DNA of 64,000 bases from NCBI GenBank assembly GCA_029267445.1, contig JAJUIU010000002.1, forward strand, positions 62,001-126,000, read 5' to 3'. The notes beneath the pieces were generated by a model. That model was not told where the DNA came from, did not search any database, and saw only the letters and a program-made list of their open reading frames with translations. Below, one piece after another: positions 6,395-10,897 of this stretch. Both the position numbers and the translations under genes were made by a program. How positions within the stretch are numbered: position 1 is the first letter of the stretch; every line of letters starts with the position of its first letter. Origin of the DNA: Rhodospirillaceae bacterium. Lineage in GTDB: Bacteria; Pseudomonadota; Alphaproteobacteria; Azospirillales; Azospirillaceae.

Positions 6395-7525
6395 CTAGCC
6401 GGCCTTCCGCCCGTCCGGGTCCGCCGTCATCGGCAGCGAAACCTTGAACACCGTCCTGCGCGGCCCGCTCTCGAATTCGATCACGCCGCCATGGTCGCCC
6501 ACGATCTTCGCCACGAGGGCGAGCCCAAGGCCGGTGCCGTTCAGCTTCGTGGTCACGAACGGGTCGAACAGGTGCGCCCGGATGTCCTCGGGAATGCCGT
6601 TGCCGTTGTCCTGCACGCTGACCAGCAACGGCAGATGGACGCGGCTGTCGGTGCCCGACAGGGCGAGCCGGACGCCATGCTGGTACGACGTGCTGAGCAC
6701 GATCTCCCCGCCCGTCTCGGGACAGGCCTCGGCCGCGTTCTTCACCAGGTTCAGGAACACCTGGACGAGCTGGTCCCGGTTGCCTAGCACGGGCGGCAGC
6801 GAGGGGTCGTACTTCTCCGTGAAGCGGATGCTCCGGGCGAATCCGCTCTGGGCGATCCGGCGCACATGCTCGAGCACGGCATGGATGTTGACCGCCTCCT
6901 TCTCCACCGGGCGGCTGTCGGAGAAGACCTCCATCCGGTCGACCAGGGCGACGATCCGGTCCGCCTCGTCGCATATCAGGCGGGTGAGCATCCGGTCGTC
7001 TTCGCCGACGCTCTCCTCCAGAAGCTGCGCCGCCCCCCGGATGCCCGAAAGCGGGTTCTTCACCTCATGCGCCAGCATGGCCGCCATGGCCACGACGGAG
7101 CGGGCGGCCCCGCGATGGCTGAGCTGCCGATCCAGCTTCCGCGCGATCGAGCGCTCGTGAAGGGTCAGGACAACCAGATCCGGCGGATCGCCGAGTGGGG
7201 CCGCCAACGCCGTCACGAAATGGCGGCCGATCCGGGGCGTGTCGACGGTCACGCCGTACTCAGACACGCTGGAATGGGTCAGCCGCGCCTGCTCCAGCAG
7301 GACGAAGACCGGGCTGTCGGCCGGGATCAGCTCGGCGAGGGGCTGGTCCTGCACCCTGGCGGCGCTGACGTCGAAGAATTCCTGCGCCTCGAGGTTCACG
7401 AACCGGATCAGCCCCGCGCGATCGACGACGAGCACGGGATCGGGAAGCGCCATCAGGATCGCCGCCGGATCGATCTCCTCCCGCGCGCGGGCCCGCGACA
7501 GGACGGCGGCCGAGCCCCGGCGCAT
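6395..7525 (-). CDS. ntrB: Nitrogen regulation sensor histidine kinase NtrB
   Basis: NtrB is the soluble two-way kinase/phosphatase of NtrC, controlled by PII proteins. The 376 residues contain a PAS domain at about 20-130 with no transmembrane segment, a phospho-acceptor H153 ([14 protein letters not shown]), an N box ([11 protein letters not shown]) and ATP-binding G boxes ([17 protein letters not shown]). The frame stays open far upstream, but only the part from the ATG at 7525 is NtrB. That ATG shares one base with the dusB stop (TGATG), which implies translational coupling and fixes the start. The sequence upstream in this frame is antisense-like and out of frame with dusB. Confidence 0.95.
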
Positions 7526-8586
7526 CAGGCGGCCACCTTCTCGGGCACCGCCGGCGTGTCGATGTCGCGGGCCGTCACGCCCCGGTCGAGCAGGCCGTTG
7601 TAGTAGTCGACGATGAGCCGCTTGACCGCGTCCGGCTGCTCCACGGTCATCACCGTGTTGCGGTAATCGGCCGAACCCTGCAGACCCTTGGAGTACCAGG
7701 CCACATGCTTGCGGGCGATCTTCAGGCCGGCCTCGACACCGTAATGCTCCAGGATCGCCTCGTAATGCTCCAGCACGATGCGGAGCTGCTCGGCCAGGGA
7801 CGGGTCGGGCAGGACCTCGCCGGTGCGGAGATAGTGCATGACCTGGCAGATGAACCAGGGGCGGCCATAGGTGCCGCGCCCGATCATCACGCCGTCCGCC
7901 CCGCTCTCCTCCAGGCAACGGACCGCGTCCGACAGCGTGGTGATGTCGCCGTTGGCGATCACGGGGATGGAGACCGCGTCCTTCACCTTGCGGATGAATT
8001 TCCAGTCGGCAGTGCCATTGTACATCTGGCAGCGGGTGCGGCCGTGCACGGTCAGCATCCGGATGCCGGACTCCTCCGCGATCCTGGCCAGCCGCGGGGC
8101 GTTCAGGTTGTTCTCGTCCCAGCCCTTGCGCATCTTCATGGTGACCGGGATGTCCACGGCCTTCGCCGTCGCCTCGAGGATGCGCCCGGCCAGCGGCTCG
8201 TCCCGCATCAGGGCGGACCCGGCATAGCCGTTCACCACCTTTTTCACGGGGCAGCCGAAATTGATGTCGATGATGTGGGCGCCGCGATCCGCGTTGAGCT
8301 TCGCCGCCTCCCCCATCACCTCCGGCTCGCAGCCGGCCAGCTGCATGGAGATTGGCGCCTCGTCCGGCGACCACTCGGTCTTCAGCATGCTTTCCCGTGT
8401 CGCGCGGATCATCGCCTGACTGGCGATCATCTCGGACACGACGAGGCCGGCACCCGTCCGCTTCACGAGGCGGCGGAACGGCATGTCGGACACGCCGGAC
8501 ATCGGGGCCAGGATAACCGGCTCCTCGATCGTGACGGGGCCGATCTGGATCGGCTTCAGATGGGATCGGGGCTTCTCGCTGCCCAT
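7525..8586 (-). CDS. dusB: tRNA-dihydrouridine synthase DusB (NifR3 family)
   Basis: This FMN-dependent enzyme reduces uridine to dihydrouridine in the tRNA D loop. The 353 residues form a TIM barrel with the N-terminal substrate/FMN motif [10 protein letters not shown], the catalytic cysteine in FGCPVKKV (general acid for the D-arm uridine in the family), and the phosphate-binding end of the barrel around [13 protein letters not shown]. It heads the ntr operon, the position where this family was first named nifR3 in Rhodobacter. Whether dihydrouridylation has any tie to nitrogen control is unknown; the link seen here is operon position only. Confidence 0.95.
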
Positions 8587-8774: not shown

Positions 8775-9293
8775 ATGGCAGGCATGGGCGCGCGCGCCGA
8801 AAGGACGGACCCGAAGCTCTGGGAGAAGGTGAAAGCCGAGATCACGAACGGGGACAAGGGCGGCAACCGCGGACAATGGTCGGCGCGCAAGGCGCAGATG
8901 GCCGTCCAGGAATACAAGAAGCGCGGCGGCGGCTATGTCGGTCCGAAGCGGAAGGACAACAGCCTCCACCAATGGACGGAGGAGGACTGGGGCACGAAAT
9001 CGGGCCGGGAGAGCACGGAGAGCGGGGAGCGCTACCTGCCGAAATCGGCCCGCGAGTCCCTCACCGACGAGGAGTACCGGCGCACCACGGCCAAGAAGCG
9101 GGCGGACAGCCGCAAGGGCCAGCAGTTCTCCAACCAGCCGAAGGATGTTGCGGCGAAGACGGCGAAGCATCGCAGGACGGGTCGCGACGGCCACGGCCCC
9201 ACCAAGGACCAGCTGTACGAGGCGGCGAGACGACGCGGCATCCCGGGTCGGTCGCGGATGAGCAAGCAGGACCTCCAGAGGGCCGTGTCATGA
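8775..9293 (+). CDS. DUF5872-like basic protein with SAP/Rho-N-like C-terminus
   Basis: Function unknown. The 172-residue protein is very rich in Lys, Arg and Gly. Its core (about 8-130) has [35 protein letters not shown] and [17 protein letters not shown], which I recall from DUF5872 proteins (also found in giant viruses, sometimes labelled plasmid stabilization). I could not check this by search. The last 30 residues ([20 protein letters not shown], then SKQDLQRAV) match the SAP/Rho-N helix-extension-helix pattern of nucleic-acid binders. A GGGAGAAAGG purine run abuts the ATG at 8775; the ATG at 8784 has better spacing and could be the real start. Its stop overlaps the next gene (ATGA). Confidence 0.75.
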
Positions 9294-9658
9294 GCCAGGA
9301 CCTGGACGACGAGGAGCGGCGGCAGATCCGTGACGCGTTCGGGACGGCGGTGAACATGGCGCCAGCGGAGCTCGAGCGCTGGCTCGACACCGGCGAAAGC
9401 CGGTCCGTCGGCTGGACGCATGAGGGCGAGAGCGAATCCGTCGGGCACCAGTCGGGCCGGCGCATCGTCGAGATCAGGCGCAAGACGGTCGCCGAGTTGA
9501 CCGACGATGACTACCGGCACATGCGGAAGGTCGTCGGCTATGTCCACCGGCACATGGCCCAGGAGCCTGGTGGCGATGTTGAGAACAGCCGGTGGCGGTA
9601 CTCCCTGATGAACTGGGGGCATGACCCTCTGAAGGACGGGGCCGGCTCCAGGCACTAG
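9290..9658 (+). CDS. DUF3140-like protein, coupled to the preceding gene
   Basis: Function unknown. The 122-residue, soluble, acidic-then-basic protein shows AFGTAVNMAPAELERWLDTG, SVGHQSGRRIVEI, DYRHMRKVVGYVHRHMAQ and a conserved end SRWRYSLMNWGHDPLK. I recognise these as the DUF3140 pattern from memory. The ATG at 9290 overlaps the preceding TGA by four bases (ATGA), so translation of the two is probably coupled and the products may act together. There is no signal peptide or membrane segment. The next gene (ispDF) starts 54 bases on and is functionally unrelated. Confidence 0.75.
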   Translation: MSQDLDDEERRQIRDAFGTAVNMAPAELERWLDTGESRSVGWTHEGESESVGHQSGRRIVEIRRKTVAELTDDDYRHMRKVVGYVHRHMAQEPGGDVENSRWRYSLMNWGHDPLKDGAGSRH

Positions 9659-9712: not shown

Positions 9713-10897
9713 ATGCCTTCCTGCGTTGCCCTGATCGTCGCCGCCGGGCGCGGCGCGCGGTTCGGGACCGACATGCCCAAGCAGTACCAGACGCTGGCGG
9801 GTCGCAGCGTGCTGGCCCGGTCCGTGGAGGCGTTCCGGCATCATCCAAGGGTCGGGTCGGTCCGCGTCGTGATCAATCCGGAGCATCGGGACCTCTACGA
9901 CCGCGCCGTGGCCGGCCTCAATCTGGGGCCCCCGGTGTCCGGCGGCGACACTCGGCAGCAGAGCGTGCGCAACGGGCTGGAGGCCTTGGCCAGCGAAGGC
10001 GCGCCGGACCTGGTGCTGATCCATGACGGGGCCCGGCCGCTGGTGGATGCCGACACGATCGGCCGCGTGATCGAAGCCCTGACCGACGCGCCTGGCGCCA
10101 TCGCGGCCACACCGCTGGCCGACACGCTGAAGCGGGAGGCGGCAGGCTCCGTCGCCGCCAACACCGTCGTCGCCGGCACCGTCGACCGCACGGGCCTCTG
10201 GCGGGCGCGGACGCCGCAGGGCTTCCGTTTCCCGGACATCCTTGCGGCCCACCGCGATGCGGCTGGGCTCGACCTGACGGACGACGCGGCGGTGGCGGAG
10301 CGGGCCGGTCTGGCCGTCCGGCTGGTTCAGAGCAATCCCGACAATCTCAAGGTGACCCACGCCTACGATCTGGCGCGGGCGGAGCGGCTGATCATGGCGG
10401 AGCTTGGGGACATCCGCACCGGGACCGGGTTCGACGTGCACGCATTCACCGAGGGCGACCATGTCATGCTCTGTGGCGTGCGCATCCCGCACGACCGGGG
10501 CTTCCTCGGCCATTCGGACGCCGATGTCGGACTGCACGCCCTGACGGATGCCATTCTGGGTGCCATCGGCGACGGCGACATCGGCCACCACTTTCCGCCC
10601 TCCGATCCCAAATGGCGCGGTGCGGACAGTGCGGTGTTCCTGCGCCATGCGCGCGACCTCGTGCGCGCCAGGGGCGGCGTCATCGCCCATGCAGACGTGA
10701 CGATCATCTGCGAGCGGCCCAAGGTGGGTCCCCACCGCCCGGCCATGGTTGCGCGGATCGCCGACATCATGGAGATCGCCCCCGACCGGGTCAGCGTGAA
10801 GGCGACCACGACGGAGCAGCTCGGCTTCACCGGCCGGCGCGAAGGGGTGGCGGCCCAGGCGGCGGCCACGGTCCGCCTTCCCTTCCCGAAAGGCTGA
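9713..10897 (+). CDS. ispDF: Bifunctional IspD/IspF, MEP isoprenoid pathway
   Basis: A fused enzyme for two non-consecutive MEP pathway steps. The IspD part (about 1-228) transfers CMP from CTP to methylerythritol 4-phosphate, with the nucleotide loop [17 protein letters not shown] at about 10-26 and conserved HDGARPLV. The IspF part (about 237-394) forms the 2,4-cyclodiphosphate, with metal ligands D241 and H243 (FDVHAF) and the [15 protein letters not shown] motif. The fusion at 394 residues is typical of alphaproteobacteria. dxr of the same pathway lies at 50338-51540, far away. pncC follows after 6 bases. Confidence 0.96.

Follow-up and report, generated by a model that had tools for sequence, protein, structure and literature searches.

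The window, a stretch of 64,000 nucleotides of contig JAJUIU010000002.1 from a Rhodospirillaceae bacterium (assembly GCA_029267445.1), carries two small overlapping genes, designated P1 and P2, which are located between a dusB-like gene and an ispDF-like gene. The features of the locus are as follows:

7525-8586, minus strand: dusB-like gene for a tRNA-dihydrouridine synthase, divergent to the pair (open reading frame and synteny; name read from the sequence)
8775-9293, plus strand: P1, 172 aa, basic (pI 10.3), with a DUF5872 core and a Rho_N-like tail
Residues about 8-134 of P1, plus strand: DUF5872 core (Pfam PF19197)
8796-8936, plus strand: N-terminal module of P1, residues about 8-54, WSARKAQ...YKK.GGGY (PHROG 17747)
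8946-9176, plus strand: central module of P1, residues 58-134, SL..W..E.WGTKSG...TGERYLP (PHROG 14910)
9204-9287, plus strand: Rho_N-like tail of P1, residues about 144-171 (Pfam Rho_N below cut-off; Foldseek match to the Rho/RNA complex 2a8v)
9290-9293, plus strand: ATGA overlap, formed by the P1 stop and the P2 start (sequence)
9290-9658, plus strand: P2, 122 aa, pI 5.8, DUF3140, all-helical
9713-10897, plus strand: ispDF-like fused gene, 54 nt 3' of P2 (open reading frame and synteny; name read from the sequence)

P1 and P2 have been confirmed as genuine genes at these coordinates. An earlier note on this DNA had described them as two small genes coupled by ATGA, and both reading frames and the overlap (...GTGTC-ATGA-GCC...) are found as described. 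The base composition of the window matches that of the two genes. A scan of the region detected neither a sigma-70-like promoter nor a terminator in the interval, and transcription running into ispDF is therefore possible. The label "orphan", which the same note had attached to the genes, was abandoned because the DUF5872 and DUF3140 families are both widespread. The constituents are thus known families without an assigned function, and it is the DUF5872-DUF3140 arrangement that is undescribed.

Both family names, already given in the earlier note, were established by profile search, in which each protein passes its Pfam cut-off: P1 matches DUF5872 (PF19197) with an E-value of 3.5e-7 and 31.3 bits (cut-off 27.5), and P2 matches DUF3140 (PF11338) with an E-value of 2e-38 and 131 bits (cut-off 25), covering positions 2-92 of the 92 in the profile. 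Searches of the pair against NCBIfam, PADLOC and PDB sequences gave no match, and P1 had no match to PF11160 (Hva1_TUDOR). P1 is strongly basic, as had been noticed from its composition (41 K+R versus 23 D+E, pI 10.3). PHROG 17747 corresponds to its residues 11-54 and PHROG 14910 to residues 58-134 (E 7.4e-29). The AlphaFold2 model of P1 is mainly helical and modular, with a mean pLDDT of 82.5 and a pTM of 0.50. Foldseek gave no significant match of the core to the PDB, and structural likeness was found to viral proteins only, including DUF5872 of Chrysochromulina ericina virus CeV-01B (BFVD match).

The C-terminus of P1 had been called SAP/Rho-N-like, and of these two types it is Rho_N that the structural superposition and the score of a relative point to. 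The window copy itself (residues 145-167) scores 19.9 bits against Rho_N (PF07498), below the cut-off of 24.9, and a Phaeobacter relative scores 38.2 bits (E 1.4e-9), well over the cut-off. The tail superposes on the Rho N-terminal domain with RNA (2a8v) with an rmsd of 1.0 Å over 31 columns; the poor Foldseek E-value of 8.6 arises because the match is short. Likeness to the Rho terminator concerns the fold of the last 31 or so residues of P1, which has just a short N-terminal motif of Rho and no ATPase. A GRS(R/K)MSK-EL tail was also found on other small proteins of the same bacterial family having a different N-terminal part (KQAIAIAL-EAG), at L116:1474-1680 (G000:C46:28214-28384, in the window genome) and at the loci L112, L113, L114 and L115. 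Since small proteins with a different N-terminal part share it, the tail appears to be a generic tag for nucleic acid.

The AlphaFold2 model of P2 consists of six helices (mean pLDDT 89, pTM 0.82) and had no significant PDB match by Foldseek (best E 2.6). P2 is mildly acidic (pI 5.8), and the median pI of DUF3140 is near 6. Comparison of 75 sequences of the family revealed that V21, L32, S37, G41, G52, I59, V81, Y84, R87, H88, Q91 and P93 are invariant, as are all of W102-R103 and S105-P113, which gives the invariant end motif WR.SLMNWGHDP; the segments of P2 named earlier as conserved are truly the conserved ones. At least 586 relatives of P2 were obtained in a genome scan, and most of them are without P1. 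DUF3140 is present in 34 of 148 sampled genomes of the class of Streptomyces and in 2 of 289 of the window's class. We found no mention of DUF3140 in the papers searched and no copy in annotated phage records. One 249-kb viral contig (IMGVR_UViG_3300050142_000050, L148:4971-5348), probably of a jumbo phage, carries a DUF3140 gene with a tRNA and a 1325-aa open reading frame nearby.

The DUF5872-DUF3140 pairing is rare: P1 lies directly upstream of DUF3140 in 3 of the nearest 80 DUF3140 loci in the genome collection. Confinement of the adjacency to one genus had been set beforehand as a point that would count against the pair; the two genes also lie side by side in three further genera, one of them gammaproteobacterial. 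The genes overlap by ATGA in Aerophototrophica and in Pseudomonas PA27, and by about 17 nt in Roseomonas AR75. The Aerophototrophica pair is at the same dusB-ispDF site as that of the window, and the Roseomonas and Pseudomonas pairs are in other surroundings, making three settings overall. The gap between the dusB and ispDF starts is 1126 nt in the window, whereas it is 218-277 nt, with no pair, in five close relatives. Subtraction of the 884-bp pair leaves 242 nt; because the window gap is thus that of the relatives plus the pair, the two genes behave as one cassette. In some more distant relatives, an unrelated stretch of roughly 1 kb is found between dusB and ispDF.

Among 82 genomes of the bacterial family, P1 (full or near-full length) is present in 16 and P2 in six, and all six P2 genomes have P1. 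The chance of such nesting is about 2e-5 if genomes are independent and only about 0.014 when genera are counted (of 13 genera, 4 have P1, and 3 of these 4 have P2). In the class-wide sample of 289 genomes, P1 was found in five, and both genomes with DUF3140 have it. Of the six P2-bearing family genomes, just two have the genes next to each other. In one genus of the family, g8, the two genes are both present, unlinked and far apart, and P1 is without the tail. One genome of this genus (L090, G007:C1:2968501-2968977) has a truncated P1, with an in-frame TAG at about residue 95, which is likely a pseudogene, and the other g8 copies of P1 stop short of the tail. In the alphaproteobacterium G302, P1 and P2 are about 18 kb apart. 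Azospirillum has P1 without P2, as does Phaeobacter on those of its plasmids that were read, and some plasmids carry members of one or the other family. The same three genes (argC-like, rpsI-like and rplM-like) are found no more than about 12 kb from P1 in both Roseomonas (L006:10371-12347) and G302 (L127:4244-17304), and this neighborhood is possibly a second ancestral site of P1.

The usual partner of DUF3140 is a different one. Hva1_TUDOR (PF11160, formerly DUF2945) is the commonest family among 100 neighbors drawn from about 50 DUF3140 loci selected to span genera, accounting for 17 of them (next best, 4). It is found within 6 kb of DUF3140 in 39 of 84 loci and immediately 5' of it, in many cases with an ATGA overlap, in at least 27 of 92 loci, a set in which a few entries are two views of one place. 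These neighbors are mostly of 66-78 aa and mostly basic, with exceptions. Because Hva1_TUDOR is usual directly upstream of DUF3140, P1 occupies a slot that is normally Tudor-like. The Hva1_TUDOR-DUF3140 unit resembles the window pair in that DUF3140 comes second, behind a small and usually basic first gene with frequent ATGA, and differs from it in that the first gene is Tudor-like and not DUF5872. The window genome gave no Hva1_TUDOR match in a search of its own sequence run without a positive control. The solved member of this family, absent here, is the fungal Hva1 of Cryptococcus (PDB 4P5N), for which a role in NADPH metabolism, and not nucleic-acid binding, has been proposed (PMC5008624).

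Rarer first genes before DUF3140, each seen once or a few times, encode DUF3008, a PNPOx-like protein and a cupin. In Aurantiacibacter and Croceicoccus (L022:5583-6336 and L038:5588-6327), TUDOR-like, DUF3008 and DUF3140 genes form, in this order, a three-gene unit coding for small proteins. On two conjugative rhizobial plasmids (L138:4513-5327 and L139:4522-5327, Pfam-tested in L138 only), a PNPOx-like gene replaces TUDOR upstream of DUF3140 and overlaps it by ATGA.

The relatives of P1 are abundant in viruses. At least 592 DUF5872 matches were obtained from viral contigs, in a scan whose query alignment was headed by a phage copy. The phage hosts include Pelagibacter, Roseobacter-group bacteria, Puniceispirillum, Synechococcus and Methylophilales, and the neighboring phage genes are those for lysis, terminase and structural proteins. 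The viral proteins (pelagiphages, roseophages, cyanophages and Chrysochromulina viruses) share a homologous core with P1, at 45-60% identity in most aligned phage copies. Unlike P1, the phage copies compared have no Rho_N tail and no DUF3140 partner, and are often two overlapping genes: DUF5872 is a single open reading frame in 53 phage loci versus two in 43. The split form consists of an N-module gene and a C-module gene, overlapping or adjacent (e.g., L120:2977-3569 and L089:7998-8237). A fusion of the N-terminal module of P1 to larger phage enzymes, hinted at by a Foldseek match to a ParB-like protein, was absent in 156 motif-bearing open reading frames. In the papers searched, DUF5872 is named in one, as an unexplained gene of Chrysochromulina parva virus, an algal giant virus (PMC12085832), and nothing further was found under this name.

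In a tree of DUF5872 (71 rows, 135 columns), ten proteobacterial copies of P1, including that of the window, group in a single clade (100/99) that lies among phage sequences. A copy from an alphaproteobacterial genome bin (G273) is placed among phages, and a Truepera copy is far off with one other bacterium. Apart from two outliers and the copies of genus g8, the bacterial copies have the Rho_N tail, and every phage copy in the comparison lacks it. A phage-to-bacteria direction of P1 transfer is only suggested, because the tree is short and unrooted and its viral rows were picked with a phage query.

We propose, with a probability of roughly 0.4, that P1 and P2 form a two-gene unit whose products act together on nucleic acid, P1 being the binder and P2 its partner. 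The proposal draws on the two family assignments, the overlap found in three other genera, the insertion as a cassette, the co-occurrence of the two genes, the Tudor slot, the viral relatives and the fold of the tail; from these we infer nucleic-acid binding by P1, its interaction with P2 and a physiological role. P1 would descend from a basic protein of phage type, having become cellular and acquired a Rho_N tail, and would bind RNA or DNA through its basic core and this tail. The acidic helical P2 would associate physically with P1, and the overlap of the genes may provide matched amounts of the two proteins. In a wider set of units, DUF3140 may be the constant half, and the first subunit would be small and exchangeable, being most often Hva1_TUDOR elsewhere. 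The unit could then be an accessory and transferable factor of nucleoid or RNP type, outside the core pathways, having a presumed protective or housekeeping role. For P1 as a nucleoid-associated protein, the pointers are its charge and the modeled tail fold only. Counting against a joint unit are the facts that P1 and P2 are often apart, that in g8 they are unlinked and P1 is tail-less, and that the Rho_N score of the window copy is below the cut-off. A fuller history, with a single domestication of a phage basic protein in Proteobacteria, its fusion to an RNA/DNA-binding tail and its capture of DUF3140 from the usual Tudor partner, giving a two-component nucleic-acid-binding unit with interchangeable first subunits, is rather doubtful. 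If DUF3140 were shown to be a constant half with small, swappable and mostly basic partners, of which one comes from a family abundant in viruses, two families would obtain a testable role, and the same demonstration would provide a way to approach what DUF5872 does in phages and algal giant viruses.

Other explanations were considered for the same observations. The tail could direct P1 to RNA, or to the targets of Rho, with P2 as a regulator, so that the pair would modulate RNA handling or transcription termination; the superposition on 2a8v and the Phaeobacter Rho_N score speak for this, but the same tail occurs on small proteins with another N-terminal part and is missing in the phage and g8 relatives, and we regard this explanation as improbable. 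An anti-phage or superinfection-exclusion unit derived from a domesticated phage protein would suit both the place of P1, as the cellular branch of a family that abounds in viruses, and the nature of the pair as an accessory cassette. This is very unlikely, given the lack of a PADLOC match, of any recognized defense gene among the inspected neighbors and of a wide occurrence of the pair. A toxin-antitoxin pair is even less probable: the genes are two, small, overlapping and accessory, with plasmid copies in each family, but no toxin or antitoxin family was matched in Pfam, NCBIfam or PADLOC, and each member is frequently found alone. Least probable of all is an accessory factor of Ku/LigD end joining. 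Many DUF3140-bearing proteobacteria have Ku and a few plasmid copies are near repair genes, but no Ku match was obtained in the window genome or in the other P1-bearing family genomes searched (the search was positive in 24 of 46 genomes), and Ku end joining is therefore not the context here. Neither Ku nor LigD is a recurrent neighbor of DUF3140, and the check for recurrent Ku, LigD and catalase genes that the earlier note had proposed revealed none of them to be recurrent on chromosomes.

P1 and P2 may instead be separate accessory stress proteins, which share an operon without forming a complex, with the overlap serving co-regulation only; we consider this somewhat unlikely. Each is widespread without the other, and DUF3140 also follows unrelated genes (PNPOx-like, cupin and DUF3008). 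Genes for catalase, UdgX, ExoIII, topoisomerase IB and trehalose are found close to some plasmid copies of DUF3140, so that a stress role is conceivable. On the other side, DUF3140 is coupled repeatedly to a small, mostly basic protein, P2 is nested in the P1-bearing genomes of the family, and the general-stress EcfG promoter (GGAAC-N15-18-YGTT) is not enriched, being found before 2 of 43 alphaproteobacterial DUF3140 loci (about 0.9 expected) and before 1 of 29 DUF5872 genes.

In two Caballeronia loci (L142:5049-8079 and L346:4049-7070), a putative DNA-repair radical SAM gene and UdgX come after DUF3140.
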